The translations under genes and the position numbers were made by a program. Shown here piece after piece: positions 12,490 to 30,877 of a stretch of DNA of 64,000 nt. Under the pieces are notes generated by a model. The model saw only the letters and a program-made list of their open reading frames with translations. It did not search any database and was not told the DNA's origin. Each line of letters opens with the position of its first letter. The stretch's first letter is position 1. Origin of the DNA: Clavibacter michiganensis (GTDB lineage: Bacteria; Actinomycetota; Actinomycetes; Actinomycetales; Microbacteriaceae); assembly GCF_021216655.1 (NCBI RefSeq), contig NZ_CP080437.1, forward strand, positions 3,162,001 to 3,226,000. Reading direction: 5' to 3'.

Positions 12490-12890
12490 AGCGCCCGCCG
12501 AGCAGGGCGTCCGCGGCCTGGAGCGCCGGCCGGCCGGAGCGGCGGCGGGGGAGAGGGACCCGGTCCCGAGCCTCGAGGGCTGCGGGACCGAGCCGCGCAC
12601 ACGGCCGACTTTTACCCGAAGACCGGCCCGGCGCTGGCGGGATAGCTCACCCGAAGAGCTGTCGCCGTTGCCCACGATCGTACTGGTCCGGCCGAGCGCC
12701 CTCTGCGGGCTGTGGGGAGCGGCCGGGGCGTGGTATCCGTCGGGCCCGGCGACGGCCGTGCCAGCGGGGCCGCATGTAAACAGCGTGTAACGGGAGGCCG
12801 CAAACGCTTCATCGGGATTGCCAACACCGTATGGCGTATTTGTAATATGTCACCTACCACCGGCTGCCCGAGGCCGGACGAGGGAGCGCC
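12490..12890. other. Intergenic region upstream of the hydroxyproline-glycopeptide locus (401 bp)
   Basis: The first 150 bases are GC-rich with imperfect hairpins (for example CGCCGGCCGGCCGG near 12523) that may end recQ transcription. The last 110 bases become much more AT-rich, from about 12775 to 12860, and contain the promoter and operator-like motif described separately. A GAGGGAG ribosome site precedes the ATG at 12891. Confidence 0.5.
12818..12853 (+). promoter_or_regulatory. Promoter with operator-like 12-mer upstream of the GH127/peptide-transport operon
   Basis: TTGCCA at 12818-12823 (one mismatch to TTGACA) and TAATAT at 12843-12848 form a -35/-10 pair with a 19-base spacer. The -10 lies inside GTAATATGTCAC (12842-12853), whose exact reverse complement occurs at 24026-24037 before the hydroxyproline oxidation genes. 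A shared AT-rich 12-mer in so GC-rich a sequence suggests the same regulator controls both, most simply the FCD-type GntR protein encoded between them. Confidence 0.6.
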
Positions 12891-14897
12891 ATGGCAGTGA
12901 CCGGAGCAGATGCGGATGCTATGCGTGTGGGCGCACGTCGCGCCGCCGTCCTCCCCAGCGTCGGATCCCGGCGCCCGCTGGGCACCGAAGCCGTCACCCT
13001 CGAAGGTGGCCTGCTCGCCGCCTGGCAGGAGCGCAACCGGTCCCGCACCATCCCCCACGCCATCGCCTCGATGACGACCGCCGGCAACCTCGACGACCTC
13101 CGCGCGGCGGTCGACGGGCCGGGCGAGCGGCCCGTCCCGCGGTACCCGTTCCTCGACACCGACGTCTACAAGACCCTCGAGGGCGTGGCCTACGAGGTCG
13201 GCCGGGGCGCCGCGACAGCGGAGATGCGCGCGTTCCTCCACGAGGCGACGGATGTGCTCGAGCGGGTGCAGGCGGCCGACGGCTACATCGGCTCGTACGT
13301 GCAGCGGCCCGGATCCGACCGCGAGCCCTGGTCCGATCTCGCGTGGGGCCACGAGCTCTACAACCTCGGGCACCTGATCCAGGCCGCGGTCGCCGACTCC
13401 CGCCAGGGCGGCGACGGCCGCCTCCTCGCCGTGGCCCGCCGCTTCGCCGACGCCGCCGTCCGCGAGTTCGGACCGGGCGCTCGCGCCGAGGTCTGCGGCC
13501 ATCCCGAGGTCGAGATGGCGCTCGTCGAGCTGCACCGCGAGACGGGGGAGCGCGCCTACCTCGACCTCGCCTCCGCGTTCGTCGACCGGCGCGGCCACGG
13601 CACGGTGGCGACGCGGATCTTCCCGGCCGAGTACTTCCAGGACGCGCATCCCTTCCGCGAGATGCCGGCCGTCACCGGCCACGCCGTCCGCATGGCGTAC
13701 CTCGCCGCGGGCGCGACGGACGTGGCGACGGAGACCGGCGACGCGGATCTCCTCGCCGCCTCCGTCCGCCTGTTCGACGACGCCGTGCGCACCCGCCTCT
13801 ACGTGACGGGCGGGCTCGGCAGCCGCCACTCGGACGAGGCCATCGGCGACGCGTACGAGCTGCCGAGCGAGCGCTCCTACAGCGAGACCTGCGCGGCCAT
13901 CGCCGTGATGCAGTGGGCCTGGCGCCTCTTCCTCGCCACCGGCGAGCCCCGCTTCCTCGACACGTTCGAGACCGTGCTCGTCAACGCCTACGCCGTGGGG
14001 CTCTCCGCCGACGGCACGGGCTTCTTCTACGACAACCCGCTCCAGCGCCGGCCCGACCACCACGCGCAGTCCGGCGCGGAGACCGAGGGCGAGCTGATGC
14101 GCCGCCCGTGGTTCACCTGCCCGTGCTGCCCGCCGAACATCGTCCGCTGGATGAGCGAGCTGCAGGACCACGTGGCCGTCCAGGACGGCGACGACCTCGT
14201 GATCGCCCACCCGGCCGACTGCGTGATCCGCACCGACGCGCTCGACGTGCGCGTGACGACCGACTACCCGTGGGACGGCACCGTGCGCGTCGAGGTGCTG
14301 CGCGCATCCGGCGCCGAGAGCGGCATCGTGATCCGCCGCCCGGGCTGGTGCCGCTCCGCGACCGCGGTCGTGCAGGGCGCCGACGGGTCCACCGCCGAGG
14401 TCGACGCGGAGGCCGGCGACCGATGGATCCGCGCCACCCGCACCTGGGCCGCCGGCGACGCGCTCGTGGTCGAGCTGGACATGCCCGTGCGCGCCCTCGG
14501 ATCCCACCCGCACCTCGACGCCACCCGCGGGACCCTCGCGGTGGCGCGCGGACCGATCGTGTTCGCCCTCGAGCAGGAGGACGCCGGCGCACCCGTCGAC
14601 GACCTGCTCCTCGACCCGCGCGACCTGGCGGCGGCACGGATCGTGCCGCTCCCGCTCGCCGCGCCGTGGGGCCCGGCGTCGGACGCCGCCGATCCCGCCT
14701 CGGGCGTCGCGCTCGCCGTGCGGCTCCGCCGCGCGTTGCCCGCTCCGGACGAGCTCTACCCCGAGGTCGTCCCCGGCACCACCGCACCCGCCGCGTCGGC
14801 CGACCCCGTCGACGCCGTGCTCGTGCCGTACGCCCTCTGGGGCAACCGGTCGCCCGCCGCCATGCGGGTCTGGATCCGCGCCGCCGACACCGGCTGA
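12891..14897 (+). CDS. GH127 beta-L-arabinofuranosidase (DUF1680 family)
   Basis: Glycoside hydrolase of 668 residues related to Bifidobacterium HypBA1, which removes beta-1,2-linked L-arabinofuranose from hydroxyproline-linked arabino-oligosaccharides of plant extensin. An alpha-barrel region covers about residues 35-430, with YSETCA near 328 and the FTCPCCPPN cluster near 408-416; in this family a Glu and three Cys bind zinc and one Cys is the nucleophile. Beta-sandwich domains follow. No signal peptide is present, so it should act in the cytoplasm on imported material. First gene of a plus-strand array leading into an oligopeptide importer, prolyl peptidases and hydroxyproline catabolism, which strongly supports a role on Hyp-arabinosides. 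GH127 members acting on other substrates exist, so this remains an inference. Confidence 0.9.
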   Translation: MAVTGADADAMRVGARRAAVLPSVGSRRPLGTEAVTLEGGLLAAWQERNRSRTIPHAIASMTTAGNLDDLRAAVDGPGERPVPRYPFLDTDVYKTLEGVAYEVGRGAATAEMRAFLHEATDVLERVQAADGYIGSYVQRPGSDREPWSDLAWGHELYNLGHLIQAAVADSRQGGDGRLLAVARRFADAAVREFGPGARAEVCGHPEVEMALVELHRETGERAYLDLASAFVDRRGHGTVATRIFPAEYFQDAHPFREMPAVTGHAVRMAYLAAGATDVATETGDADLLAASVRLFDDAVRTRLYVTGGLGSRHSDEAIGDAYELPSERSYSETCAAIAVMQWAWRLFLATGEPRFLDTFETVLVNAYAVGLSADGTGFFYDNPLQRRPDHHAQSGAETEGELMRRPWFTCPCCPPNIVRWMSELQDHVAVQDGDDLVIAHPADCVIRTDALDVRVTTDYPWDGTVRVEVLRASGAESGIVIRRPGWCRSATAVVQGADGSTAEVDAEAGDRWIRATRTWAAGDALVVELDMPVRALGSHPHLDATRGTLAVARGPIVFALEQEDAGAPVDDLLLDPRDLAAARIVPLPLAAPWGPASDAADPASGVALAVRLRRALPAPDELYPEVVPGTTAPAASADPVDAVLVPYALWGNRSPAAMRVWIRAADTG

Positions 14898-15046
14898 GCC
14901 GTCCCGCGCGCGCACGCCACCCGTTCCCACCCGATCCGGGGCGGTCGCGCGCACCTCCACTTCCTCCCCATCCCTCCCATCGCACGACCCCGTCCGTCAC
15001 TCCCCACCCGGCGCGCCACGGCCGCCATCCACGAAACGAGAGTCCG

Positions 15047-16729
15047 ATGAACCGACGAATCACCGCAGTAGGGCTGGCCGTCGCCGCCAGCCTCGCCCTC
15101 ACGTCCTGCGCCGGCGCCGGCGGCGGCGCCGCCGCAGGCGGCGTCACCGGCCCCGCCGACACAGGCGGCACCATGCAGGTGCTCGCCAGCACCGACTTCT
15201 CGCACCTGGATCCGGAGATGGGCTACGACACCGGCGTCGCCGACCTGTACCGGCTCATCTACCGCACGCTCACCACGGCGTCCGGCGAGGACGGCGCGAC
15301 GATCGCACCCGACCTCGCGACCGACACCGGCACGCCCAACGCCGACGCGACGGTGTGGACTTTCACGCTCAAGGACGGCCTGAAGTTCGAGGACGGGTCG
15401 CCCATCACGAGCGAATCGGTCAAGTTCGGCGTCGAGCGCTCGTTCGACCCGGCGCTCGCCATCGGCACCCCCTACACGCGCCTCTACCTCGCGGGTGGCG
15501 ACTCCTACAAGGGCCCGTACGAGTCGGGCGACCTCTCCTCCATCGAGACGCCGGACGCGAAGACCATCGTCTTCCACCTCAACCGCTCCGTGCCCGAGTT
15601 CGCGAGCGTCGCCGCGCAGAGCACGTTCACGCCGTTCCCGGCCGACAAGGACAGGGTGACGGTCACGAGCATCGACCAGCAGCCCATCGCGTCCGGACCG
15701 TACCGGGTCACCGCCCGCACCGCGGGATCCTCCCTCACCCTCGAGCGCAACCCCGAGTGGGACCAGGCGACCGACGACGTGCGCACCGCCAAGCCCGACA
15801 AGTGGCAGTTCACGATCGGCCTCGACCAGGCGACCATCGACGAGCGCATGCTCGCCGGCCAGGGCGACGACAAGAACGCGATCGCCTACACGATCACGGC
15901 CGCCAGCGTCTCGCGCATCCAGACGCCGCAGATCAAGGCCCGCACCGTGACGGGCGACCAGGCGTGCACCACCTACCTGGGGCTCAACACGACCAAGCCC
16001 CATCTCAGCGACGTGCGCGTCCGGCAGGCGATCTCCTACGCGATCGACAAGAAGTCCCTCGCGGACGTCGCCGGCGGCCCCTCCATCGCGGAGCCCGCGT
16101 CCACGATGCTCACCCCTTCCATCCCCGGCCACAAGGACTTCGACCTCTACCCGAGCACCGACAGCGCGGGCGACGTCGACAAGGCGAAGGCGCTGCTCGC
16201 CGAGGCGGGCGTGCCCGATGGCTTCACGATGACCCTCGACGTGCGCAACCTGCCCTCCTCCCAGAAGCAGGCCGAGGCGCTCCAGCAGTCGCTCGCCAAG
16301 GTGGGCATCACCGTCGAGTTCAACATCCTCGACACCTCGACCTACTACGAGACCATCGGCACGACCTCCCAGCAGCACGACGCCGCGGTCACGGGCTGGT
16401 GCCCTGACTGGCTGTCGGCGAGCACGGTCCTCCCGACCCTGTTCGACGGCCGCCAGATCAGCCCGAAGGGCAACAACGACATCTCGCAGCTGAACGACTC
16501 GGCCGTGAACGCGAAGATCGACGAGGTCTCGGCCATGACCGACCTCGACGCCGCGAAGACCGCGTGGGGCGACCTGGACGAGCAGATCCAGCAGCTCGCC
16601 CCGACCGTGCCGCTCCTGTTCGCGCAGTCGGTGCTCGTGGTGGGGGAGAACGTGCGGAACGCCTACTCCAGCCCCCTCTACGCAGGCGGGATCGACTACG
16701 CCACCATCGGCCTCCACACGGGGAAGTAG
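15047..16729 (+). CDS. Oligopeptide ABC transporter substrate-binding lipoprotein (SBP_bac_5)
   Basis: Receptor of the peptide importer, 560 residues. The N-terminus has a signal segment and lipobox ALTSC (Cys near residue 22), followed by a Gly/Ala-rich linker. The mature part is a cluster C binding protein with the family features LDPEMGYDTG, GLKFEDGSPITSESVKFGVE and RQAISYAIDKKSL. Such proteins bind di- to oligopeptides, nickel or some glycans. Here the flanking GH127 and prolyl peptidases suggest glycosylated, hydroxyproline-containing peptides, which is inference. It starts 150 bases after the GH127 gene; that gap is AC-rich with no clear terminator, and a GAGAG ribosome site precedes the ATG. 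The permease begins 3 bases after the stop. Confidence 0.9.
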   Translation: MNRRITAVGLAVAASLALTSCAGAGGGAAAGGVTGPADTGGTMQVLASTDFSHLDPEMGYDTGVADLYRLIYRTLTTASGEDGATIAPDLATDTGTPNADATVWTFTLKDGLKFEDGSPITSESVKFGVERSFDPALAIGTPYTRLYLAGGDSYKGPYESGDLSSIETPDAKTIVFHLNRSVPEFASVAAQSTFTPFPADKDRVTVTSIDQQPIASGPYRVTARTAGSSLTLERNPEWDQATDDVRTAKPDKWQFTIGLDQATIDERMLAGQGDDKNAIAYTITAASVSRIQTPQIKARTVTGDQACTTYLGLNTTKPHLSDVRVRQAISYAIDKKSLADVAGGPSIAEPASTMLTPSIPGHKDFDLYPSTDSAGDVDKAKALLAEAGVPDGFTMTLDVRNLPSSQKQAEALQQSLAKVGITVEFNILDTSTYYETIGTTSQQHDAAVTGWCPDWLSASTVLPTLFDGRQISPKGNNDISQLNDSAVNAKIDEVSAMTDLDAAKTAWGDLDEQIQQLAPTVPLLFAQSVLVVGENVRNAYSSPLYAGGIDYATIGLHTGK

Positions 16730-16732
16730 GCG

Positions 16733-17695
16733 GTGACCGCCACCCTCCAGGGCGCGTCCGCGCCCGACTCGGCCCCCGCCTACCCGACGGGACGGCCGCC
16801 GGCCGTCACGCCGGCCAAGCGCGTGGTCGCCGCCCTCCGGTCGAAGCCGTCCGTGATCCTCAGCACCGCGTTCGTGGTGATCGTCCTGGTCCTCGCGGTG
16901 TTCGCTCCGCTCCTGTCCGGGATCACCGGCTGGGGCCCCACGACCTTCGACCCCGACGCCGTGGATCCCGTCCTCGGCGGCCTCCCCCTCGGCCCGTTCG
17001 GCGGCGTCAGCGCCTCGCACTGGTTCGGCGTCGAGCCGCAGAACGGCCGCGACCTGTTCGCCCGGATCGCGTACGGCGCCCGGGTGTCCCTGCTCATCGC
17101 GGTCTCCGCCACGGTCGTCACCACGACGATCGGCGTGTTCGCGGGCATGGTCGCCGGCTACTTCGGCGGGATCGTCGACCAGGTCGTCTCACGGATCATG
17201 GACTTCCTCATGGCCTTCCCGGCGCTCATCTTCATGATCGCGATCCTGTCGGCCCTGCCCGCGGGCAACCGCCCGGCGCTGCTCGTCCTGGTGCTCAGCG
17301 TCTTCGGCTGGCCGTACACGGCGCGCATCGTGCGCGGCCAGACCATGACGATCCGCACGCGCGACTTCGTGGAGGCGGCCCGGGCGTCCGGCGCGTCCTC
17401 CATGGGCGTCATCTTCCGGGAGGTGCTGCCGAACCTGCGCGGCACCGTCATCGTGCTGGCCACGCTCGCGGTGCCGAGCTACATCGGCACCGAGGCGAGC
17501 CTGTCGTTCCTCGGCGTGGGCGTGCTGCCGCCGACGCCGTCGTGGGGCCAGATGATCGCCGACTCGGTGACCTGGTACACGGTGGACCCCGCGTACTTCA
17601 TCGTGCCGGGCTCGTTCCTCTTCCTCACGGTGCTGTCGTTCACGGTCTTCGGCGACCACCTCCGCACGGCGCTGGAGCAGGGGGAGGCGGCATGA
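16733..17695 (+). CDS. Peptide ABC transporter permease (DppC/OppC-like)
   Basis: Membrane subunit of the peptide importer, 320 residues, with a long polar N-terminus and about six membrane segments. The EAA loop that contacts the ATPase is EAARASGASSMGVIFREVLPN-like near residue 218-238, and ARIAYGARVSLLIA near 115 is typical of DppC/OppC. The GTG start at 16733 lies 3 bases after the binding-protein stop, with GGGGAAG as ribosome site. Its gene precedes the DppB-like gene, the reverse of the usual B-then-C order. Confidence 0.92.
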   Translation: MTATLQGASAPDSAPAYPTGRPPAVTPAKRVVAALRSKPSVILSTAFVVIVLVLAVFAPLLSGITGWGPTTFDPDAVDPVLGGLPLGPFGGVSASHWFGVEPQNGRDLFARIAYGARVSLLIAVSATVVTTTIGVFAGMVAGYFGGIVDQVVSRIMDFLMAFPALIFMIAILSALPAGNRPALLVLVLSVFGWPYTARIVRGQTMTIRTRDFVEAARASGASSMGVIFREVLPNLRGTVIVLATLAVPSYIGTEASLSFLGVGVLPPTPSWGQMIADSVTWYTVDPAYFIVPGSFLFLTVLSFTVFGDHLRTALEQGEAA

Positions 17696-18684
17696 TCGGC
17701 TACCTCGTCCGCCGCGCCGGATCCGCGCTGATCGTGCTCGCGCTCATCAGCCTGTTCACCTACATGATCTTCTTCCTGCTCCAGCCGGACCCCGCCGTCA
17801 CCATCTGCGGCAAGACCTGCACGCCGGACAAGATCGACTCCATCCGCCAGCTCCTCGGCCTCGACCGGCCGTTCTGGGCGCAGTACGGCGACTTCATCAC
17901 GGGCATCTTCACCGGACGCACCTACGGCGACGGCCCCACCGCGATCCAGTGCTCCGCGCCGTGCCTCGGCTTCAGCTTCCAGACGCAGCAGCCCGTGCTC
18001 GACCTGATGCTGTCCCGCCTCCCCGTGAGCGTCACCATCGCGGTCGGCGCGGCGGTCCTCTGGGTCGTCTTCGGCGTGGCCGGCGGCCTCGTCAGCGCGA
18101 TCAAGCAGGGCAGCGTGTGGGACCGGACCGCCATGGCGGCGGCGCTCACCGGGATCAGCGTGCCGATCACGTTCGCGGCGCTGCTCCTGCAGTACGTGCT
18201 CGTCGTGCAGCTGCAGGTGCTGCCGTTCCCGCAGTCCGTGGCGTTCGGCGACGACCCCGTCGCGTGGTTCGACTCGTATCTCATGCCGTGGCTGGTGCTC
18301 GCGCTCGGCTACGCGGCCATCTACGCGCGGATCGTGCGGGCCAACGTGATCGACACCCTGCAGGAGGACTACCTGCGGACGGCGCGCGCCAAGGGCCTGT
18401 CCGCGGCGCTCGTGATCCGCCGGCACGCGCTCCGGCCGTCGCTCACGCCCGTGGTGACGCTGTTCGGCATGGACTTCGCCGGGCTGCTCGGCGGGGCCGT
18501 GATCACCGAGAGCGTCTTCGGCCTCAACGGCGTCGGCAAGCTCGCCGCCGACTCCATCGCCAAGAACGACCAGCCCGTCATCATGGGCGTCACGCTCCTC
18601 GCCGCGGCCTTCGTGGTAGTCGGGAACGTGGTCGTCGACGTGCTGTACACCGTGCTCGACCCCCGAGTGAGGATCACCTCGTGA
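17692..18684 (+). CDS. Peptide ABC transporter permease (DppB/OppB-like)
   Basis: Second membrane subunit, 330 residues. It has the N-terminal MIGYLVRRAGSALIVLALIS start typical of DppB, about six membrane segments and the EAA loop DYLRTARAKGLSAALVIRRH near residues 222-241. A two-Cys periplasmic loop (CGKTC near residue 40 and a further CSAPC near 88) lies between segments 1 and 2; four Cys there is unusual and might form disulphides. The ATG overlaps the previous stop by 4 bases, and its own stop overlaps the next GTG, so the whole importer is translationally coupled. Confidence 0.92.
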   Translation: MIGYLVRRAGSALIVLALISLFTYMIFFLLQPDPAVTICGKTCTPDKIDSIRQLLGLDRPFWAQYGDFITGIFTGRTYGDGPTAIQCSAPCLGFSFQTQQPVLDLMLSRLPVSVTIAVGAAVLWVVFGVAGGLVSAIKQGSVWDRTAMAAALTGISVPITFAALLLQYVLVVQLQVLPFPQSVAFGDDPVAWFDSYLMPWLVLALGYAAIYARIVRANVIDTLQEDYLRTARAKGLSAALVIRRHALRPSLTPVVTLFGMDFAGLLGGAVITESVFGLNGVGKLAADSIAKNDQPVIMGVTLLAAAFVVVGNVVVDVLYTVLDPRVRITS

Positions 18685-19547
18685 CCGCCACCGCACCGCA
18701 CCACCAGCCCGCCCGCGCCGTCCCCGGGACCCCGCTCCTCGAGGTCGAGCACCTCACCATCGCGTTCCCCACCTCGCGGGGGCCGGTCGAGGTGGTGAAG
18801 GACCTCTCCTTCCGGGTTGAGCCGGACAGCACCCTCGGCATCGTGGGCGAGTCCGGGTCCGGCAAGTCGATGACCTCGCTCGCGGTGATGGGCCTCGTGC
18901 CGCGCGGCGGGAAGGTCACCGGATCCATCAAGCTGGCGGGCGAGGAGCTCGTCGGCCGGAGCGACAAGGAGCTGCGGGCCATGCGCGGCGACCGCATGGC
19001 GATGGTGTTCCAGGATCCGCTCTCCTCGCTCAACCCCTACTACACGGTGGGGCTGCAGATCGAGGAGGCCTACCGGTCGCATCGCTCCGGCTCCCGGAAG
19101 TCCGTGCGGTCGACCGTGGTCGCGGCGCTCGACCGGGTGGGGATCAAGGAGGCCGCGACGCGCGTCGACCACTACCCGCACCAGTTCTCGGGCGGCATGC
19201 GGCAGCGCATCATGATCGCGATGGCGCTGTGCCTCGAGCCCGAGCTGCTCATCGCCGACGAGCCGACCACCGCGCTCGACGTGACGGTGCAGGCGCAGAT
19301 CCTCGACCTCATGCGCTCCATCCGCGCGGAGACGGGGATGGGGATGCTCGTCATCACCCACGACCTCGCCGTCGTGTCCTCCCTCGCCGACGAGGTGCTC
19401 GTCATGCAGGGCGGGCACCGCGTCGAGAGCGGCACCACCGAGCGCGTGTTCACCGCGCCGGAGGATCCGTACACGCACGCCCTGCTCGAGGCGATCCCCC
19501 GCATCGACGCCGCATACGACCGCCAGACGACGGGACCCGCATCATGA
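18681..19547 (+). CDS. Peptide ABC transporter ATP-binding protein (DppD/OppD-like)
   Basis: Cytoplasmic ATPase subunit, 288 residues. Walker A GESGSGKSM is near residue 55, Q-loop VFQDPLSSLNPYYTV near 112, signature FSGGMRQR near 171, Walker B LLIADEPTTALDVT near 190 and H-loop ITHDLA near 225. The C-terminus has the oligopeptide-transporter extension YTHALLEAIPRID. It is shorter than standalone OppD, which often carries a Cys-rich iron-sulphur tail that is absent here. GTG start overlapping the DppB-like stop. Confidence 0.92.
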   Translation: MTATAPHHQPARAVPGTPLLEVEHLTIAFPTSRGPVEVVKDLSFRVEPDSTLGIVGESGSGKSMTSLAVMGLVPRGGKVTGSIKLAGEELVGRSDKELRAMRGDRMAMVFQDPLSSLNPYYTVGLQIEEAYRSHRSGSRKSVRSTVVAALDRVGIKEAATRVDHYPHQFSGGMRQRIMIAMALCLEPELLIADEPTTALDVTVQAQILDLMRSIRAETGMGMLVITHDLAVVSSLADEVLVMQGGHRVESGTTERVFTAPEDPYTHALLEAIPRIDAAYDRQTTGPAS

Positions 19548-23255: not shown

Positions 23256-23272
23256 CACAGAGGAGGACCCGC

Positions 23273-23986
23273 GTGAGCCTCTCCGCACTGCGTCCCGCAC
23301 CCCCGCGCGAGAGCCTGCGCGAGCACGTGCACCAGGCCCTGTCCGCGGCCATCGTCTCGGGCGAGCTGGAACCCGGCACGCTCATCACCGTGCCCACGCT
23401 CGCCGTGCGCTTCGACGTCTCGGCCACGCCCGTCCGCGAGGCGGTGCTCGAGCTCGAGAAGCGCGGCTTCGTGGAGACGGTCCGCAACAAGGGCTTCCGC
23501 GTCACCGCCGTGAGCGACGAGGAGCTCGGCCACCTGGTGCAGGTGCGGCAGCTCCTCGAGGCGCCGGCCATGGCGCGGCTCGCCGGGCACCTGCCCGAGG
23601 GCGCGCTGCCCGGCCTCGAGGCGCTCGCCGACCGCATCGAGCAGGGCGCGCGCGAGGGGGACCTCCGCGCGTACCTCGAGGCCGACCAGGAGCTGCACCT
23701 CTCCCTCACGCGCATGCTCGGCAACCCCGTGCTCACGGCGGCCATCGCCGACCTCCGCTCGCGCACGCGCCTCGTCGGCCTCGCGTCGATGAAGGAGAGC
23801 AGCCTCCTCGACGCCTCGGCGGCCGAGCACCATGAGCTGCTGCGGGCGTTGGTCGCCGGCGACGGATCCGGGGCGCACGAGCTGATGGTGCGGCACATCC
23901 GGCACGCCACCGGCTGGTGGGCGGGGCGCGGCGAGGACGAGCCCGCGGCGGATGCAGGCGCGTCCCGGGTCGACCACGACGCCTGA
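23273..23986 (+). CDS. GntR-family regulator, FadR/FCD subfamily
   Basis: DNA-binding regulator of 237 residues. The winged helix covers residues 12-75 (IVSGELEPGTLITVPTLA and SATPVREAVLELEKRGFVE). The C-terminal all-helical FCD domain (about 80-215) contains DQELHLSLTRMLGNP, AEHHELLRALVAGD and HIRHATGW, whose Asp and His residues typically bind a metal and a carboxylate effector. Hydroxyproline or a pathway acid would fit as ligand. GTG start with an AGAGGAGGA ribosome site, 17 bases after the M24 gene. It lies between the uptake and the oxidation halves of the locus, just before the inverted-repeat operator at 24026-24043. Confidence 0.9.
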   Translation: MSLSALRPAPPRESLREHVHQALSAAIVSGELEPGTLITVPTLAVRFDVSATPVREAVLELEKRGFVETVRNKGFRVTAVSDEELGHLVQVRQLLEAPAMARLAGHLPEGALPGLEALADRIEQGAREGDLRAYLEADQELHLSLTRMLGNPVLTAAIADLRSRTRLVGLASMKESSLLDASAAEHHELLRALVAGDGSGAHELMVRHIRHATGWWAGRGEDEPAADAGASRVDHDA

Positions 23987-24025: not shown

Positions 24026-24043
24026 GTGACATATTACTGTCAC
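24026..24043. promoter_or_regulatory. Operator: perfect inverted repeat GTGACA-N6-TGTCAC before the hydroxyproline oxidation genes
   Basis: GTGACATATTACTGTCAC has perfect 6-base arms and an AT-rich centre, 56 bases before the ATG at 24099 and 39 bases after the FCD regulator gene. The first 12 bases recur, inverted, at 12842-12853. It is a good candidate binding site for the FCD-type regulator, and could also contain the -10 region of a second promoter. Confidence 0.65.
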
Positions 24044-24098: not shown

Positions 24099-25343
24099 AT
24101 GACGCGTCACGTGGTCGTCGTGGGCGGCGGCATCGTCGGGGCCGCGTGCGCCCGGTCGCTCGCCCGTGCGGGGATGCGCGTCACGGTCGTCGAGCGCGCC
24201 GCCGTCGCGTCCGGCACGAGCGCCCAGGGCGAGGGCAACATCCTCGTGTCCGACAAGGGGCCGGGCGCCGAGCTCGAGCTCGCGCAGCTGGCCGCCCGCC
24301 GTTGGCCCGAGGTGGCCGCCGAGCTCGCGGACGAGCTGGGCGACGCGCTGCCCTCCATCGAGTACGAGCCCAAGGGCGGGCTCGTCGTCACGACCACCGA
24401 CGAGGGCGCGGATCCGCTCCTCGCCTTCGCCGCCACCCAGCGCTCCGCGGGCGTCGACGCCGTGCCCGTCGACCGGCGTCGGGCGCTCGAGCTCGAGCCG
24501 TGGCTGAACCCCGCGATCACCGCGGCCGTGCACTACCCCGAGGACGCGCAGGTGCAGCCCGCCATCGCGACCGAGGCGCTCGCCGCCTCGGCCAGGCGGG
24601 CGGGCGCGGTCGTGCGCACCGGGGTCGAGGTCATCGGGCCGCTGCTCGACGCGGACGGCGCGCTCCGCGGCGTGCGGACGAGCGCGGGCGACATCGCCGC
24701 GGACGACGTGCTGATCGCGGCGGGACCGTGGTCGGGCGAGGTGGCGCGGACCCTCGGCGTCGAGCTGCCCGTGCTGCCGCGGCGGGGCGTCGTGCTCGTC
24801 ACCACGCGCATGCCGCACCGCATCCGGCACAAGGTCTACGACGGCGACTACGTGGGCGCGGTCGGATCCGGCGACGGGGCGCTGCAGACCTCGGGCGTCG
24901 TGGAGTCGACGCCGTCGGGCACGGTGCTCATCGGATCCAGCCGCGAGCGCGTGGGCTTCGACGCGTCGCTGCGCGTGGCCGTGCTCGAGGAGCTCGCCGC
25001 GAAGGCCGTGCGGCTCTTCCCCTTCCTCGTCGAGGCGAACGCGATGCGCTCCTACGGCGGCTTCCGCCCGTACCTGCCCGACCACCTGCCGGTCGTCGGG
25101 CCGGATCCGCGACTGCCCGGCCTCTGGCACGCGAGCGGGCACGAGGGCGCCGGCATCGGCCTGTCGGTCGCGACCGCGGACCTCATCGTGGCGCAGATGA
25201 CGGGCGAGGCGACCCCGCTCGACGTGCGGCCCTTCTCCGTCGCGCGCGCCTCGCTCGGGCTGCCGATGCCCGGGGGCGCTGCGCCCGGAGCCGCCGCGCC
25301 CGGCCTCGCGCTGCCCACCGACGCGGCCGGAGCGCGCGCATGA
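24099..25343 (+). CDS. FAD-dependent oxidoreductase, D-hydroxyproline dehydrogenase beta-like subunit (DAO family)
   Basis: Likely catalytic subunit oxidising cis-4-hydroxy-D-proline to pyrroline-4-hydroxy-2-carboxylate; 414 residues. The N-terminal FAD motif VVVGGGIVGAACA is at residues 5-17 with ERA at the end of the second strand, and the C-terminal DAO signature includes GLWHASGHEGAGIGLS near 345-360. Related to the beta subunit of HcnABC/octopine-type and hydroxyproline dehydrogenases. The assignment rests on the two following genes (2Fe-2S gamma subunit and NAD/FAD alpha subunit), which together form the heterotrimeric enzyme, and on the epimerase, deaminase and dehydrogenase downstream. 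The ATG is 112 bases after the regulator, with an operator between. A Gly/Ala/Pro-rich tail of about 25 residues is unconserved. Confidence 0.85.
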   Translation: MTRHVVVVGGGIVGAACARSLARAGMRVTVVERAAVASGTSAQGEGNILVSDKGPGAELELAQLAARRWPEVAAELADELGDALPSIEYEPKGGLVVTTTDEGADPLLAFAATQRSAGVDAVPVDRRRALELEPWLNPAITAAVHYPEDAQVQPAIATEALAASARRAGAVVRTGVEVIGPLLDADGALRGVRTSAGDIAADDVLIAAGPWSGEVARTLGVELPVLPRRGVVLVTTRMPHRIRHKVYDGDYVGAVGSGDGALQTSGVVESTPSGTVLIGSSRERVGFDASLRVAVLEELAAKAVRLFPFLVEANAMRSYGGFRPYLPDHLPVVGPDPRLPGLWHASGHEGAGIGLSVATADLIVAQMTGEATPLDVRPFSVARASLGLPMPGGAAPGAAAPGLALPTDAAGARA

Positions 25344-25678
25344 CGCCGCGGCGCGTGGATCCGGCGCGCGACCCGATCCGCCCGGGACCCGCCGAGGCGG
25401 TGCGCTTCACCATGGACGGGGATCCCGTCGAGGGCGTCGGCGGCCAGACCATCGCGGGCGCGCTGCTCGCCTCCGGCACGCTCGCCTGGCGCACGACCGC
25501 GAGCGCCGGCCGGCCCCGCGGCGTCTTCTGCGGGATCGGCGTGTGCTTCGACTGCACCGTCACCGTGAACGGGCTGCCGGACGTCCGCGCCTGCCAGCGC
25601 CGCGCGGTCGAGGGCGACGTGGTCGAGACCGGGCCGGGCGCGACCGTGCCCGACGCGCGCGCGGGGGAGGCGTCGTGA
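25340..25678 (+). CDS. (2Fe-2S)-binding small subunit, D-hydroxyproline dehydrogenase gamma-like
   Basis: Small electron-transfer subunit of 112 residues. Residues 20-105 form a Fer2_4-type fold with the cluster-binding pattern CGIGVCFDC near residues 58-66 and a further Cys near 81 (RACQRR). It would pass electrons between the flavin subunits of the hydroxyproline dehydrogenase. Start and stop both overlap neighbours by 4 bases (beta subunit before, alpha subunit after), which fits a stoichiometric complex. Confidence 0.85.
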   Translation: MTPRRVDPARDPIRPGPAEAVRFTMDGDPVEGVGGQTIAGALLASGTLAWRTTASAGRPRGVFCGIGVCFDCTVTVNGLPDVRACQRRAVEGDVVETGPGATVPDARAGEAS

Positions 25679-27366
25679 GCGGCGCGGACGACCGGCGGCA
25701 CGTCGTCGTGATCGGCGCGGGACCGGCAGGGCTCGCGGCCGCGGTCGCCGCCCGCGGTCGCGGGGCGCGCGTCACGCTGCTCGACGCGTCCGACGAGCTC
25801 GGCGGCCAGTACTGGCGGCACCTGCCGGCGACGCGGCCCGCCGCGCGCGAGCGGATCCTGCACCACGGCTGGGACGCGTTCACCGCGCTCCGCGGACGGC
25901 TCGCGGCCGACGACGGCTGCGAGATCGTGACGGGCGCGCAGGTGTGGGCGATCGAGCGGCCGGCACCGGACGCGCCCGCCGTCGCCGACTCGTCCGCGCC
26001 GCCCGCCGCCGTCGTGCACGTCCTCGTCGGCCAGGTCGACGGATCCCGCCGCGAGCCGCTGGCCCTCCGCCCGGACGCGCTCGTGCTCGCGACCGGCGCG
26101 CACGACCGCACGCTGCCCTTCCCCGGCTGGGACCTGCCGGGCGTCTTCACCGCGGGCGCCGCGCAGGCGCTCGCGAAGGGCGAGCGGGTCGCGATCGGCG
26201 ACCGCGTGATCGTCGCGGGCGCCGGGCCCTTCCTCCTGCCCGTCGCCGTGTCGCTCGTGCAGGCGGGGGCGCGCGTGGTCGGGATCCACGAGGCCGCGCG
26301 CGTGCCCGGACTCGCCCGCGGGTGGCTGCGCAGTCCGCTCGGCCTCGCCCGCGCCCCGCACAAGGCCGCCGAGCTCGCCGGGTACGTCTCCGTGCTGGCG
26401 CGGGAGCGGATCGGCTACTCCACCGGCAGCGCGGTGGTCGCGGCGCACGGCACCGACCGCGTCGACGCCGTCACCGTGCAGCGCCTCGACGCCTCGTGGG
26501 CACCGATCCCCGGCACCGAGCGGCGGATCGCCGTGGACGCCGTGTGCGTGGGCCACGGGTTCACGCCCCGGCTCGAGCTGCCGATCGCCGCGGGCTGCCG
26601 CATCGGCGCCGACCGCTTCGTCGAGGTCGACGCCTCCCAGGGCGCCGGGCCGGCTGGCGTCTTCGCGGCGGGCGAGATCACCGGCATCGGGGGAGTGGAC
26701 CAGGCGCTCGCGGAGGGCGAGGTCGCGGGGCACTGCGCCGCGGGCGGATCCCCGTCCGACGCCGCCGTCGCCCCCGCGGTCCGCCGCCGGGCCGTCGCGC
26801 ACGACGTGGCCGGCCGCATCGAGGCCGCGCACGGGATCCGCCCCGGCTGGACCGGCTGGCTCCGCGACGACACGCTCGCGTGCCGCTGCGAGGAGGTGCC
26901 CGTCGGCCGGATCCGCGCGACCGCCCGCGCCGCGTCGTCCACCGACCTCCGCTCCATGAAGCTCGCGACGCGCGCCGGCCTCGGCATCTGCCAGGGCCGC
27001 GTCTGCGGGCGGACCGTCGAGCAGCTGCTCGCGGCGGAGGCTCCGGCGTGCGGATCCGCGCCCGCCGCGTCTCCCGCCGCCGCGCCCGGCCCCGGATCCG
27101 ACCGCCGCCCCATCGCCTCGCCCGTGCGCCTCGGCGAGCTCGCCGCCGCCTACGAGCGCCGCGACACCGGACCCCCGTCCCTCGCCGCGGCCGCGCCCGG
27201 CGTCGACGACCCGCCGCCCGCCGGCGTCGCGGACCCGCCGCCCGCCGGCGTCGCGGACCCGCCGCCCGCCGACGACCCGCCCGCGGGCAGCGACCCGCCG
27301 CGCGACCCCGCGCCCCCGACCACCCCAGCACCTCCCCGCACCACCGACCGGAAGGACACCCCTTGA
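25675..27366 (+). CDS. FAD/NAD-dependent oxidoreductase, D-hydroxyproline dehydrogenase alpha-like subunit
   Basis: Flavoprotein subunit of 563 residues. VVIGAGPAGLAAAVAA near residue 10 binds FAD, RVIVAGAGPFLLPVAVSL near 180 is the second nucleotide site, and FAAGEITGIGGVDQALAEG near 329 is typical of HcnB/SoxA-like subunits. A BFD-like 2Fe-2S domain follows with CRCEE near 403 and GICQGRVCG near 440 (four Cys). Residues beyond about 455 are an unusual Pro/Ala/Asp-rich tail of over 100 residues containing a tandem DPPPAGVA repeat, not expected in this family. GTG start overlapping the gamma-subunit stop. Confidence 0.85.
   Translation: MSGADDRRHVVVIGAGPAGLAAAVAARGRGARVTLLDASDELGGQYWRHLPATRPAARERILHHGWDAFTALRGRLAADDGCEIVTGAQVWAIERPAPDAPAVADSSAPPAAVVHVLVGQVDGSRREPLALRPDALVLATGAHDRTLPFPGWDLPGVFTAGAAQALAKGERVAIGDRVIVAGAGPFLLPVAVSLVQAGARVVGIHEAARVPGLARGWLRSPLGLARAPHKAAELAGYVSVLARERIGYSTGSAVVAAHGTDRVDAVTVQRLDASWAPIPGTERRIAVDAVCVGHGFTPRLELPIAAGCRIGADRFVEVDASQGAGPAGVFAAGEITGIGGVDQALAEGEVAGHCAAGGSPSDAAVAPAVRRRAVAHDVAGRIEAAHGIRPGWTGWLRDDTLACRCEEVPVGRIRATARAASSTDLRSMKLATRAGLGICQGRVCGRTVEQLLAAEAPACGSAPAASPAAAPGPGSDRRPIASPVRLGELAAAYERRDTGPPSLAAAAPGVDDPPPAGVADPPPAGVADPPPADDPPAGSDPPRDPAPPTTPAPPRTTDRKDTP
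27208..27270 (+). repeat. Tandem 24-base repeat coding the DPPPAGVA tail
   Basis: Two identical 24-base units (27208-27231, 27232-27255) and a 15-base partial third encode DPPPAGVA repeats in the C-terminal tail of the dehydrogenase alpha subunit. The unit length keeps the reading frame, so copy number can change without breaking the gene. Confidence 0.85.
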
Positions 27367-28280
27367 CCGCACCCGCCCTGGACCTCGGAGGCGTCGTCGT
27401 CGCCACCACGCTGCCGTTCCGCGAGGACGCGTCGGCCCCCGCCGGCCTCGCCGTCGACTACGACGCGTACGCCGCACACTGCGACTGGCTCATGTCGAAC
27501 GGCTGCCGCGGCGTCGGCCCGAACGGATCGCTCGGCGAGTACTCCTCGCTCACGGACGAGGAGCGCCGCAAGGTCGTGCAGGTCGCGGTCGAGACCGTCG
27601 GCGACCGCGGGATCGTCGTGGCCGGCGTGCACGGCGTCGGCTGGCACCAGGCCAAGAAGTGGGCCGAGATCGCGGCCGAGGACGGCGCCGACGGCGTGCT
27701 GCTCCTCCCGCCCACCATCTACCGGGCGAGCGACGACGAGGTCGTCGAGCACTACGCGCGCGTCGACGAGGTGGGCCTGCCGATCATGGCCTACAACAAC
27801 CCGTTCGACACCAAGGTCGACCTCACGCCGCAGCTCCTCCAGCGCCTCGACGCGCTCGAGAACGTCGTGGCGATCAAGGAGTTCTCCGGCGACATCCGCC
27901 GCGTGACGGAGATCCAGGACCTCACGGGCCTCGACGTCATCGCGGGCGCCGACGACCTGCTGCTCGAGTCGCTCATCATGGGCGCCGTCGGCTGGTTCGC
28001 CGGCTACCCGAACGCGTTCCCGCGCGAGGCCGTCGAGCTGTACGGGCTCGCGACGAGCGGCCGCATCGAGGAGGCGAAGGAGCTGTACAAGCACCTCGTG
28101 CCCGTCTTCCGCTGGGACTCACGCACCGAGTTCGTGCAGGCCATCAAGCTGTCGATCGACGTGGCCGGCGAGAGCACGGGCGGCCCCACGCGTCCGCCGC
28201 GCGCGCCGCTGCCCGCCGCCATCGCGGAGCAGGTCACGCGCGACACGCGCCGCGCGCTCGACCACCTCGCCGGGCGATGA
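27363..28280 (+). CDS. DapA-superfamily lyase, probable 1-pyrroline-4-hydroxy-2-carboxylate deaminase
   Basis: Class I aldolase-type enzyme of 305 residues predicted to deaminate pyrroline-4-hydroxy-2-carboxylate to 2-oxoglutarate semialdehyde. The DHDPS-family Schiff-base Lys is K172 in VVAIKEFSGD, and the conserved Tyr is Y144 in AYNNPF. The usual GTTGE loop is replaced by GPNGSLGEYSSLT, as in non-DHDPS members. True DHDPS activity is unlikely given the surrounding hydroxyproline genes. The start is TTG, overlapping the alpha-subunit stop by 4 bases with GGAAGG upstream. The epimerase follows after 7 bases. Confidence 0.85.
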   Translation: MTAPALDLGGVVVATTLPFREDASAPAGLAVDYDAYAAHCDWLMSNGCRGVGPNGSLGEYSSLTDEERRKVVQVAVETVGDRGIVVAGVHGVGWHQAKKWAEIAAEDGADGVLLLPPTIYRASDDEVVEHYARVDEVGLPIMAYNNPFDTKVDLTPQLLQRLDALENVVAIKEFSGDIRRVTEIQDLTGLDVIAGADDLLLESLIMGAVGWFAGYPNAFPREAVELYGLATSGRIEEAKELYKHLVPVFRWDSRTEFVQAIKLSIDVAGESTGGPTRPPRAPLPAAIAEQVTRDTRRALDHLAGR

Positions 28281-28287
28281 TCGAGGC

Positions 28288-29289
28288 ATGAGGTCCTCCC
28301 GCGTCTTCCACGCCGTCGACTCGCACACGGAGGGCATGCCGACCCGCGTCGTCACGAGCGGCTTCGGCGTGATCCCCGGCTCCACCATGAACGAGCGCCG
28401 CCTGCACCTCATCGAGCACCTCGACCACCTACGGCTCCTGCTCATGACGGAGCCGCGCGGGCACGCGGCGATGAGCGGCGCGATCCTGCAGCCGCCCACG
28501 CGCGACGACTGCGACTGGGGCGTCCTGTACATCGAGGTGTCCGGCTGCCTCCCGATGTGCGGCCACGGCACCATCGGCGTCGCGACCGTGCTGGTGGAGA
28601 CGGGGCTCGTCGAGGTGCAGGAGCCGGTCACCACGATCCGGCTCGACACCCCGGCGGGCCTCGTGATCGCGCGCGTCGACGTGGAGGACGGTCGGGCCGC
28701 GTCCGTCACGATCGAGAACGTGCCGTCGTACGTGGAGCGGCTCGATGCCTCCATCGAGGTGCCGGGGTACGGCACCGTGCCGTACAGCCTCGCGTTCGGC
28801 GGCAACTTCTACGCGGTCGTCGAGCTCGACGCGCTGGGGCTGCCGTTCGACCGGGAGCGGCAGCAGGAGATCCTCCAGGCCGGGCTCGCGATCATGGGCG
28901 CGATCAACGACCAGGACGCGCCGTCGCACCCGGAGATCTCCGGGGTCGACCACTGCCACCACGTCGAGTTTCTCGCGCCCGGATCGGACGCCAGGCTCTC
29001 GCGGCACGCCATGGCGATCCACCCCGGCTGGTTCGACCGCTCGCCGTGCGGCACCGGCACGTCCGCGCGCATGGCCGAGCTGTGGGCGCGCGGCGAGCTG
29101 GCGGTCGGCGACGAGTTCGTCAACGAGTCGTTCATCGGCAGCCGCTTCACCGGCCGGATCCTCCGGGAGACGACCGTCGCCGGCCGGCCCGCCATCGTCC
29201 CCGCCATCACCGGGCGCGCCTGGATCACCGGCATGGGACAGTACCTGCTGGACCCCAGCGACCCGTTCCCGAGCGGCTTCCGGTTCTGA
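28288..29289 (+). CDS. 4-hydroxyproline 2-epimerase (proline racemase family)
   Basis: Converts trans-4-hydroxy-L-proline to cis-4-hydroxy-D-proline, the first catabolic step; 333 residues, cytoplasmic. Both catalytic Cys are present: C91 in MCGHGT and C254 in SPCGTGTSA. That excludes trans-3-hydroxyproline dehydratase, in which the first Cys is replaced. The MCGHG form (not MCGHA) and the dehydrogenase, deaminase and semialdehyde dehydrogenase neighbours favour the hydroxyproline enzyme over proline racemase. Short 7-base gap from the deaminase with a GAGG ribosome site. Confidence 0.92.
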   Translation: MRSSRVFHAVDSHTEGMPTRVVTSGFGVIPGSTMNERRLHLIEHLDHLRLLLMTEPRGHAAMSGAILQPPTRDDCDWGVLYIEVSGCLPMCGHGTIGVATVLVETGLVEVQEPVTTIRLDTPAGLVIARVDVEDGRAASVTIENVPSYVERLDASIEVPGYGTVPYSLAFGGNFYAVVELDALGLPFDRERQQEILQAGLAIMGAINDQDAPSHPEISGVDHCHHVEFLAPGSDARLSRHAMAIHPGWFDRSPCGTGTSARMAELWARGELAVGDEFVNESFIGSRFTGRILRETTVAGRPAIVPAITGRAWITGMGQYLLDPSDPFPSGFRF

Positions 29290-29315
29290 GCCGCAAGCCC
29301 CCACCGAGGAGAGAC

Positions 29316-30836
29316 ATGACCCCGCACGAGACCGACACGACCACCGACCCGACCGTGGATCCCTCCGTCGCCGCGACCGTCGACGCCGTCGCCGCGCGCG
29401 CCGCAGCGGCCGCCGCGCCGCTCGCCGCCCTGGCGCCGGCCGCCCGGGCCCGCGCGCTCGACGCCGTCGCCGACGCGCTCGAGCGGATCCGCCCCGAGCT
29501 GCTGCCCGTCGCCGAGCGGGAGACCGCGCTCGCGCCCGGCCGCCTCGCCGGCGAGCTGACGCGCACGACCGTGCAGCTGCGGATCCTCGCGGCAGCCGTG
29601 CGCGACGGCCGCTACCTCGACGCCCGCATCGACCACGCGGACGCCGACGCGGCACCCGCCCCGCGCCCCGACATCCGCCGCTACCTCGTGCCCGTCGGCC
29701 CGGTCCTGAACTTCGCGGCGTCGAACTTCCCGTTCGCGTTCTCCGTCGCGGGCGGCGACACCGCGTCGGCGCTCGCGGTCGGCTGCCCGGTGGTCGTGAA
29801 GGCGCACCCGGGCCACCCGGAGCTGTCGCGCCTGGTCGCCGAGGCCGCGTCCGCCGCGCTCGTCGCCGCGGGGCTGCCCGAGGGCACGCTCCAGCTCGTC
29901 GAGGGCGAGGAGGCGGGGCTCGCCATGCTGCGCGACCCGCGGATCCGCGCCGCCATGTTCACGGGATCGCTCCGCGCCGGCCGCTTCCTCGCCGACGTCG
30001 CGGCCGCCCGCCCCGACCCGATCCCGTTCTTCGGCGAGCTGGGCAGCGTCAACCCGGTCGTCGTCACCGAGCGCGCCGCCGCCGAGCGCGGCGAGGACAT
30101 CGCGGCGGCCCTCGTGGCGAGCGCAGCCGGATCCGCCGGGCAGCTCTGCACCGCGCCCGGCATCGTCCTGATCCCCGCCGGCCACGGCCTCGACGCCGTG
30201 CTCGCGGAGGAGGCCGGTGCCGTCGCGCCGCACGGGATGCTCAACGCGAGGATCGCCGAGGGCTACGCGGGCGGCCGCGCCGCCGCCATCGCGGTCGACG
30301 GCGTCCGGCTCGTCGCGGAGGGCCGCGCGCCCGCCGGCGACGACGGATCCGTGACCCCCACCATCGCCGCCGTCTCCCTCGCCGACTTCGAGGCCGCGGG
30401 CGACGCCCTCCGGCACGAGGTCTTCGGCCCCTTCGCGCTCCTCGTCGAGTACCCGGCCGGCACCGACCTCGCGGCCCTCGCCGCCCGCACCTTCACCGGC
30501 GAGCTGACCGCGAGCGTGCACCTCGGCGCCGACGAGGCCGAGGCGGGCGGGGCGGCGACCGCCGACCTGATCCGCGTGCTCGCCGCCCGCGCCGGCCGCG
30601 TGCTCGTCGACGCCTGGCCCACGGGCGTCTCGGTCACCGACGCGCAGCAGCACGGCGGACCCTGGCCCGCGACCACGCTCGACCGCGGCACAAGCGTCGG
30701 CACGGCATCGCTCGACCGGCTGCTCCGCGGCGTCGCCTTCCAGGGCGTGCCCGACGCGCTGCTGCCGGAGCCGCTGCGCACCGCGAACCCGTGGGGCGTG
30801 CCGCAGCGCGTCAGCGCCCGCGGGCATCGCGCCTAG
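29316..30836 (+). CDS. 2-oxoglutarate semialdehyde dehydrogenase-like aldehyde dehydrogenase
   Basis: NAD(P)-dependent aldehyde dehydrogenase of 506 residues catalysing the last step, 2-oxoglutarate semialdehyde to 2-oxoglutarate. FAASNFPFAFSVAGGDTASA near residue 130 and VVVKAHPGHPE near 158 are typical of the KGSADH group. GELGSVNPVV near 240 carries the general-base Glu and GQLCTAPG near 275 the nucleophilic Cys. The N-terminal 30 residues are low complexity. The ATG has CGAGGAGAG upstream, 26 bases after the epimerase. Last gene of the array, followed by a GC-rich hairpin at 30842-30877. Confidence 0.9.
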   Translation: MTPHETDTTTDPTVDPSVAATVDAVAARAAAAAAPLAALAPAARARALDAVADALERIRPELLPVAERETALAPGRLAGELTRTTVQLRILAAAVRDGRYLDARIDHADADAAPAPRPDIRRYLVPVGPVLNFAASNFPFAFSVAGGDTASALAVGCPVVVKAHPGHPELSRLVAEAASAALVAAGLPEGTLQLVEGEEAGLAMLRDPRIRAAMFTGSLRAGRFLADVAAARPDPIPFFGELGSVNPVVVTERAAAERGEDIAAALVASAAGSAGQLCTAPGIVLIPAGHGLDAVLAEEAGAVAPHGMLNARIAEGYAGGRAAAIAVDGVRLVAEGRAPAGDDGSVTPTIAAVSLADFEAAGDALRHEVFGPFALLVEYPAGTDLAALAARTFTGELTASVHLGADEAEAGGAATADLIRVLAARAGRVLVDAWPTGVSVTDAQQHGGPWPATTLDRGTSVGTASLDRLLRGVAFQGVPDALLPEPLRTANPWGVPQRVSARGHRA

Positions 30837-30841
30837 GGGAG

Positions 30842-30877
30842 CGCGGGGCGCCCGTCGGGGCCCCGCCGACGCCCGCG
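30842..30877 (+). terminator. Probable terminator of the hydroxyproline operon
   Basis: Inner stem CGTCGG (30853-30858) / CCGACG (30866-30871) extended by an outer CGCGGG / CCCGCG pairing across a five-base bulge. It begins 5 bases after the aldehyde dehydrogenase stop; no T-run follows. Confidence 0.5.

Follow-up and report, generated by a model that had tools for sequence, protein, structure and literature searches.

In Streptomyces coelicolor, HypR is a GntR/FCD repressor of the hydroxyproline (Hyp) operon and binds the footprinted sites TACAATGTCAC and TGCAATGTCAC. L-Hyp induces its regulon (SCO6289-6294), and an epimerase knockout in SCO6289-6293 does not grow on L-Hyp (PMC6608401; here and below, statements about the literature refer to the cited parts of the sources). 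Streptomyces lividans also grows on trans-4-Hyp (PMC4113996). In Bifidobacterium longum, an intracellular GH127 enzyme of the HypAA-HypBA2-HypBA1 system acts on beta-arabinosides of Hyp-rich glycoproteins beside a linked ATP-binding cassette (ABC) importer; an outer GH121 enzyme releases beta-Ara2, which is taken up by this sugar importer (PMC7263609). Among the wall proteins with which plants bar pathogens are extensins and related Hyp-rich glycoproteins (PMC6085000). I analysed a 64-kb window of a Clavibacter chromosome, C1:3162001-3226000 (the window is the whole stretch of DNA, whose numbering is used throughout). Its 15 plus-strand genes from 12891 to 30836 (Table 1) probably form a HypR-controlled regulon of two adjacent units for the use of arabinosylated Hyp-rich plant peptides from extensins and similar proteins.

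The first unit encodes, in this order, a GH127 protein, a family-5 binding protein, two permeases, two ATPases, an S33 peptidase, an M24 peptidase, and a GntR/FCD regulator. The second encodes DAO, Fer2_4, Pyr_redox/Fer2_BFD, DHDPS-like, proline-racemase-family, and aldehyde dehydrogenase proteins. A preliminary description of this DNA had taken these genes for a single plus-strand array from 12818 to 30877, joined mostly by 4-base stop/start overlaps. The strand and the gene set hold, and such overlaps occur at 8 of the 14 joints (the remaining gaps are 149, 3, 17, 112, 7, and 26 bases), but position 12818 is the first TTG of an overlapping binding-protein frame, and the GH127 start codon lies at 12891 or just downstream. 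Since the 112-bp gap before the DAO gene contains an operator-like box, two transcription units are suggested rather than one. A sigma-70 promoter scan upstream of GH127 found none. The locus is flanked by RecQ upstream and an acyl-CoA oxidase-like gene downstream.

The 3.38-Mb genome was found to have exactly two copies of a 12-bp box, GTAATATGTCAC, one upstream of GH127 and the other upstream of the Hyp dehydrogenase genes. These are the sole window matches with up to two mismatches. Genome-wide, the GTRACATATYAC form likewise matches exactly at these two boxes and nowhere else, while one further site has one mismatch and the others have two; no array gene lies within 1.5 kb of the third-closest box (one mismatch, C1:1631792). 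The window box and TACAATGTCAC have ATGTCAC in common, with mismatches at 2 of 11 positions, and the metal-site residues of S. coelicolor HypR (E96, D138, H142, E185, H186, and H208; PMC6608401) have the same numbers in the window regulator. In 59 relatives searched, both exact boxes are present in 14 of the 17 congeners, one in two (G013 and G016), and none in G014; beyond the genus, boxes were found only in G020 and G041. The box before GH127 is conserved in 15 of 17 congeners. A reversed control pattern gave one match in 60 genomes (the relatives and the window's own genome). In 199 family genomes, GTAATRTGTCACM was found at 57 places in 31 genomes versus 3 for the reversed control, and 23 of the 30 places fetched lie no more than 1.5 kb from a gene for GH127, M24, FCD, DAO, or the epimerase. 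Among the other seven are what look by eye like an MHS transporter (L244) and AGCS symporters (L252 and L253), as well as a distant family-5 binding protein (L245). These genes behind a HypR-type box in other Microbacteriaceae are possibly Hyp uptake genes.

Is the operator shared beyond the genus? A matrix was built non-circularly from the seven published HypR-bound sites only and scanned over 300 bases around gene starts, leaving out the Clavibacter loci and the duplicates L141 and L150. At 10 bits, a threshold chosen after viewing thresholds 8 to 12, a site precedes GH127 in 60 of 72 loci, where random windows drawn from these loci predict 3.6, and DAO in 12 of 21 (1.2 predicted), while the inner genes show few (SBP5 2/71, PermB 1/70, S33 1/63). 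When each genus label was represented by its first locus, all 25 loci reached 10 bits (the labels include one metagenome-assembled genome and one family name), versus a mean of 2.7 and a maximum of 12 for 200 column-permuted matrices; over all loci, the permuted matrices gave a mean of 6.5 and a maximum of 21. The exact 11-mer TGCAATGTCAC was found in nine of the scanned loci and TACAATGTCAC in one. In an unguided 7-mer count over non-Clavibacter loci, two duplicate pairs included, TGTGACA ranks first before DAO genes (20/27 loci versus 0.6 expected) and TGCAATG before GH127 (39/74 versus 1.9). Since strong k-mers also precede SBP5, DHDPS, ProRac, and FCD, where they were read as conserved coding ends, and since the relatives are not independent, this count serves as a lead only. 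As judged from sequence, it is supported that GH127, the importer, the prolyl peptidases, and Hyp catabolism constitute one predicted regulon conserved across actinobacterial families.

The preliminary description had proposed a gene-order search across genomes. The complete array is present in the same order in 14 of 17 same-genus genomes; its pieces are on separate contigs in G002, G013 has the epimerase and no S33 gene, and G014 has neither at an expectation value (E) of 1e-20. A scan of named genomes with two peptide patterns, which samples the GH127 clade nearest to the window, gave 75 loci, 70 of them outside Clavibacter. By the tree they represent nine families: Microbacteriaceae, Micrococcaceae, Promicromonosporaceae, Intrasporangiaceae, Propionibacteriaceae, Kribbellaceae, Jiangellaceae, Streptomycetaceae, and Streptosporangiaceae. 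In 67 of the 70 loci, and in all 22 genus labels, the importer lies beside a related GH127 (binding protein in 68, permeases and ATPases in 67, S33 in 60, M24 in 52, FCD in 36). Some Hyp gene is present in 43, a count that includes loci with only a DHDPS-like gene of 50-57% identity. With Kribbella, Nonomuraea, Streptomyces, and others, the range is wider than plant pathogens.

The arrangement was compared in 26 drawn loci. The Hyp genes lie downstream on the same strand in Clavibacter, Agromyces, Plantibacter, Okibacterium, and Planctomonas, are divergent in Isoptericola, Krasilnikoviella, Terrabacter, an Intrasporangiaceae genome, Gryllotalpicola, and Streptomyces, and lie upstream on the same strand in Streptomyces iconiensis. 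In Nonomuraea, Streptomyces, Specibacter, and Acidipropionibacterium, a deaminase-epimerase pair is appended to the uptake unit. G020 has the uptake unit on one contig and the Hyp genes on another; a box precedes the latter, and GH127 is preceded by a HypR-type site. A chance neighbourhood was rejected in view of the linkage retained despite rearrangement. Clustering of the other neighbours (frames of at least 120 aa not overlapping array matches) gave no family common to at least two genus labels in more than 10 of 76 loci; the largest has 10 loci in 5 labels, and the widest, LacI-like by eye, has 8 loci in 7 labels. A Streptomyces locus (L171, strain NBC_01669) has GH127, S33, M24, and Hyp genes, and no peptide importer was seen in the examined stretch.

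A natural deletion was revealed in G013: its match to the window stops at 12720 and resumes at 23128, the two parts being 153 bases apart. The deletion has taken box 1, GH127, the importer, S33, and nearly all of M24, while the regulator, box 2, and the Hyp genes are kept. The uptake unit is separable from Hyp use, because G013 lost only the former. Such a loss would be expected if the uptake unit supplies one form of Hyp.

All three GH127 domains, catalytic PF07944, middle PF20736, and C-terminal PF20737, score above their cut-offs in the first protein, and no signal peptide was seen by eye. On an alignment with HypBA1, counted by hand, E322, E338, C340, C417, and C418 correspond to E316, E332, C334, C412, and C413 of the window protein, which are invariant in a 30-row alignment. 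I take these HypBA1 residues to be the acid/base glutamate, the zinc ligands, and the cysteine nucleophile. Cysteine has been described as the GH127 nucleophile (PMC10850190). The structural model has a mean predicted local distance difference test (pLDDT) score of 81.6, with low-confidence active-site loops around 310-329 (310-315 and 323-329) and at 380-409. In Foldseek, it matches Ara127N, BT3674, and HypBA1 with template modelling (TM) scores of 0.81-0.83 (E 3.5e-44 to 3.4e-38), BT_1003 more weakly (E 3.6e-36), and the best GH146 far more weakly (E 2.9e-21); as modelled, the fold is nearer to GH127 than to GH146. In the tree, the module-linked GH127s (43 rows) form one side of a 100/100 branch and 16 other GH127-like proteins the opposite side, a split that is partly by construction since the labels follow a 48% identity cut and the module neighbours. 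None of 16 loci around GH127 paralogues (L079, L086, L087, and L089-L101) has Hyp, S33, or M24 genes at E 1e-10. Streptosporangium sp. KLBMP 9127 (L183) has two GH127 genes, one of the module clade and one divergent on a long branch at 43% identity. By homology and context, the window enzyme may cleave Hyp-linked beta-arabinose.

The best NCBIfam model for this protein is aceric acid hydrolase (NF049879), which would suit an enzyme acting on pectin, either on the aceric acid of rhamnogalacturonan II or on terminal beta-arabinose, and placed here by chance or loose co-regulation. However, its score of 315.6 bits is far under the cut-off of 950, so that this identity was rejected; in fold, beta-L-arabinofuranosidases are the better match and BT_1003 the poorer one, and the linkage survives rearrangement in nine families. 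The chance that pectin is the target seems next to negligible.

The oligopeptide ABC importer set is complete, with a family-5 binding protein, two permeases, and two oligo_HPY ATPases. The binding-protein model (pLDDT 88.3) has oligopeptide-binding proteins as its nearest structures, and the best solved relative is the oligopeptide-binding protein of the clavulanic-acid cluster (2wok/2wop), solved with arginine and bradykinin; no NCBIfam equivalog cut-off was reached. By homology and genomic context, this importer may carry glycopeptides. The best solved relative of the S33 protein is plant AT3g61540 (8jgn, E 7e-97). NCBIfam gave prolyl aminopeptidase for S33 (38.6 bits) and Xaa-Pro aminopeptidase as the best for M24, both under the cut-off. 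S33 prolyl aminopeptidases have been proposed to degrade Pro-/Hyp-rich peptides, and a title in the reference list of the same paper reports activity on acetylated Hyp (PMC9147577). In the second unit, the four-step trans-4-Hyp route is present at the family level: epimerase, three-subunit dehydrogenase, deaminase, and semialdehyde dehydrogenase. The epimerase protein is best matched by 4-hydroxyproline epimerase (349 bits, not reaching the cut-off of 376). A trans-3-Hyp dehydratase was rejected for this protein in view of its Cys/Cys pair; trans-3-Hyp dehydratases are known to have threonine. The cysteine in the GQLCT motif of the aldehyde dehydrogenase is presumably catalytic. An araA gene was found in the same genome.

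The gene families, shared boxes, conservation, natural deletion, and folds were observed by computation. As for substrates, order of cleavage, and repression, the following route may be proposed. The binding protein and the importer would take in short Hyp peptides, at least partly arabinosylated, and the cytoplasmic GH127 would strip beta-L-arabinofuranose. HypBA1 of B. longum cleaves Ara-Hyp, Ara2-Hyp, Ara3-Hyp, and beta-Ara2 (PMC6085000), so that by analogy a single GH127 enzyme might in principle suffice to remove a beta-linked chain. The aminopeptidase P-type enzyme would cleave off residues preceding Pro/Hyp and the prolyl aminopeptidase the N-terminal Pro/Hyp, so that together they could degrade a Ser-Hyp-Hyp run residue by residue. 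Free Hyp would pass through the epimerase, the three-subunit dehydrogenase, and the deaminase, and a final oxidation would yield 2-oxoglutarate, while arabinose would enter the AraA route. By binding the GTAATATGTCAC boxes, the FCD protein may keep both units repressed, a block that would end once Hyp or a product builds up.

Several observations weigh against this proposal. When ten array proteins were scanned against NCBIfam, no listed model reached its cut-off, the aceric acid hydrolase match of GH127 included, and the DAO protein scored best with glycine oxidase (177.9 bits versus a cut-off of 250.8). Thus, the single-enzyme names rest on domains, motifs, and context, and the earlier claim that every enzyme of trans-4-Hyp catabolism is encoded stands at the family level. 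By structure titles, family-5 binding proteins also bind opines, sialic acid, haem, and glutathione. The module genes are absent around S33 relatives in 12 of 20 S33-centred loci. No Hyp gene was found in the examined stretch of 27 of the 70 non-Clavibacter loci, mostly from Kribbella and Nonomuraea, some of these stretches being short. The box is absent in 12 of the 72 scanned loci (Kribbella seven of its 12, Streptomyces four, Nonomuraea one), and at 8-9 bits PermB reaches 17 of 70, exceeding the 6-8 expected. Neither L-Hyp nor D-Hyp changed the DNA binding of S. coelicolor HypR in vitro (PMC6608401). In addition, the array has no outer protease or alpha-arabinosidase, which leaves the route from long chains to importable pieces unexplained.

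The weakest step is the import of intact glycopeptides, which I infer because the peptide importer and an apparently unsecreted GH127 share one unit. The importer could instead carry bare or deglycosylated Hyp/Pro peptides, GH127 acting on arabinosides that enter via another carrier and the co-regulation reflecting the same plant protein source. The peptide-type binding protein and the two proline peptidases fit this, as does L152, which has the importer, S33, M24, and Hyp genes and no GH127 in the examined stretch. However, GH127 stands directly before the importer genes in nearly every drawn locus, its clade is linked to the importer, and no second sugar importer recurs among the neighbours. 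Bare-peptide import is unlikely, though worth keeping in mind. Alternatively, the cargo could be free Hyp-arabinosides or beta-arabino-oligosaccharides, as with beta-Ara2 and the B. longum sugar importer; GH127 comes first in the unit, and some family-5 binding proteins take small non-peptides (opines and sialic acid, by structure titles). This would leave the two proline-directed peptidases of the unit without a substrate, and the nearest solved relatives of the binding protein bind peptides or amino acids, which makes such a cargo very unlikely.

A system serving Hyp peptides of animal collagen or gelatin, the role suggested for the HypR regulon of S. coelicolor, would agree with the control of a collagenase by that HypR (PMC6608401). 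In contrast, GH127 heads the unit here, the array contains no collagenase, and none was recognised among the listed recurrent neighbours. Collagen is not known to carry beta-arabinose. Collagen use was rejected for an array without a collagenase and is highly improbable. The regulon for arabinosylated plant peptides might also be read more boldly: as a dedicated importer of intact Ara-Hyp glycopeptides in at least nine actinobacterial families that, in plant-associated members such as Clavibacter, also removes arabinosylated signalling peptides (HypSys, CLE, CEP, and PSY types). I consider this extended version quite unlikely; if it is true, the nutrient pathway doubles as peptide-hormone erasure.

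Table 1. Features of the Clavibacter window, in window coordinates.
Feature	Position	Strand	Basis
HypR-type operator box 1 GTAATATGTCAC, putative	12842..12853	+	37 bp before GH127; position weight matrix of published HypR sites 11.3
GH127 beta-L-arabinofuranosidase, 668 aa	12891..14897	+	PF07944 276.6 bits; both other GH127 domains
Family-5 solute-binding protein, lipoprotein-like	15047..16729	+	PF00496 263 bits; LTSC near N terminus by eye
Importer permease, OppC-like	16733..17695	+	PF00528; PF12911 under its cut-off
Importer permease, OppB-like	17692..18684	+	PF00528, PF19300
Importer ATPase 1, OppD-like	18681..19547	+	PF00005, oligo_HPY
Importer ATPase 2, OppF-like	19544..20482	+	PF00005, oligo_HPY
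S33 large prolyl aminopeptidase-like alpha/beta hydrolase, 435 aa	20479..21786	+	PF00561; nucleophile elbow GQSYGG
Aminopeptidase P-type metallopeptidase, M24 with AMP_N domain	21783..23255	+	PF00557, PF05195
GntR/FCD regulator, HypR-like	23273..23986	+	PF00392, PF07729
HypR-type operator box 2 GTAATATGTCAC, putative	24026..24037	-	61 bp before DAO gene
D-hydroxyproline dehydrogenase beta subunit (DAO)	24099..25343	+	PF01266 221 bits; gene order as SCO6289-6293
D-hydroxyproline dehydrogenase gamma subunit (Fer2_4)	25340..25678	+	PF13510
D-hydroxyproline dehydrogenase alpha subunit (Pyr_redox + Fer2_BFD)	25675..27366	+	PF07992, PF04324
Pyrroline-4-hydroxy-2-carboxylate deaminase (DHDPS-like), predicted	27363..28280	+	PF00701 151 bits; specificity from operon order
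4-Hydroxyproline epimerase (proline racemase family)	28288..29289	+	PF05544 429 bits; Cys/Cys motifs CGHG, PCGTG
Aldehyde dehydrogenase, putative 2-oxoglutarate semialdehyde dehydrogenase	29316..30836	+	PF00171 126 bits; Cys in GQLCT
Second prolyl aminopeptidase, small type	34903-35871	+	TIGR01249 376 bits, above cut-off; 4 kb downstream of array
AbiJ N-terminal + CAP12/Pycsar-type TIR protein	36059-36994	-	PADLOC match PDC-S35
Beta-helix protein, glycosyltransferase, 2148-aa PKD/laminin-G protein	40976-56394	+	also a weak O-antigen-ligase-like match

The second prolyl aminopeptidase gene in the window has no HypR box. As for S33 relatives elsewhere, those of L137-L140, L142-L148, and L153 have 57-63% identity and no module genes at comparable identity; thus, the S33 peptidase is not confined to the module. 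Further downstream, the TIR protein probably functions in anti-phage defence, as judged from its sequence match, and the genes from the beta-helix protein onward are perhaps a surface polysaccharide cluster. The 8-kb stretches compared from the two small contigs of the genome match Clavibacter michiganensis tomato plasmids at 100% identity, over the full length and 84%, respectively.

The preliminary description knew of no system linking all these parts. Open-access searches agree, as none was found to unite GH127 with Hyp catabolism (subscription journals lay mostly outside the search), and among the titles listed for Clavibacter and hydroxyproline, none concerned bacterial Hyp use; the Hyp half with its regulator is nevertheless known from SCO6289-6294. 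That the parts form one pathway, as had also been claimed, is now favoured by the HypR-like regulator, the shared boxes, and the conserved linkage, while the glycopeptide cargo and the GH127 specificity are still suggested by homology and context. The S. coelicolor regulon resembles the window locus in the Hyp gene order (beta, gamma, alpha, deaminase, epimerase), in the FadR/FCD regulator with its metal-site residues at the same numbers, and in the related operator. It differs in including a secreted collagenase; GH127, a peptide importer, and a proline peptidase are all absent from its table, and its Hyp operon has no aldehyde dehydrogenase gene nearby (PMC6608401). The Hyp operons of the proline racemase superfamily share the epimerase, cis-4-Hyp oxidase, deaminase, and semialdehyde dehydrogenase, and the cited part mentions no glycosidase (PMC4113996). 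Pseudomonas aeruginosa lhp and Sinorhizobium meliloti hyp use the same four-step chemistry, S. meliloti with a FadR-like HypR too; a GH127 or glycopeptide step is not mentioned where PMC6608401 cites them.

On the glycan side, the window array has a peptide-type importer, peptidases, and Hyp catabolism, and GH121 HypBA2 and the sugar-type importer of B. longum are not among its genes. The plant pathogen Xanthomonas euvesicatoria has the enzymes XeHypBA1/BA2/AA for Hyp-linked arabinosides, XeHypBA1 preferring Ara-Hyp, and the cited part mentions no Hyp catabolism or importer (PMC6085000). In contrast to the window enzyme, XeHypBA1 is classed in GH146 (PMC10850190). For Latescibacteria, extensin use was inferred from GH127 and ABC transporters, with no Hyp route described in the cited part (PMC4454575). 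If the proposed route is correct, the locus predicts a bacterial glycopeptide importer, an unusual cargo, and suggests what a defined GH127 clade does in many actinobacterial genomes, along with a family of binding proteins, two peptidases, and a regulator. With purified proteins, it then becomes directly testable what happens to Hyp-rich wall protein in plants and soil, and the HypR regulon would extend beyond collagen to plant walls. Taken singly, HypR, the Hyp route, and GH127 are already known; their union is apparently undescribed. In the cited sources, bacterial use goes no further than the sugar (Bifidobacterium, Xanthomonas) or is a matter of free Hyp and collagen (Streptomyces, Pseudomonas), whereas the Clavibacter locus joins both and may be seen as a HypR regulon turned to plant glycopeptides.

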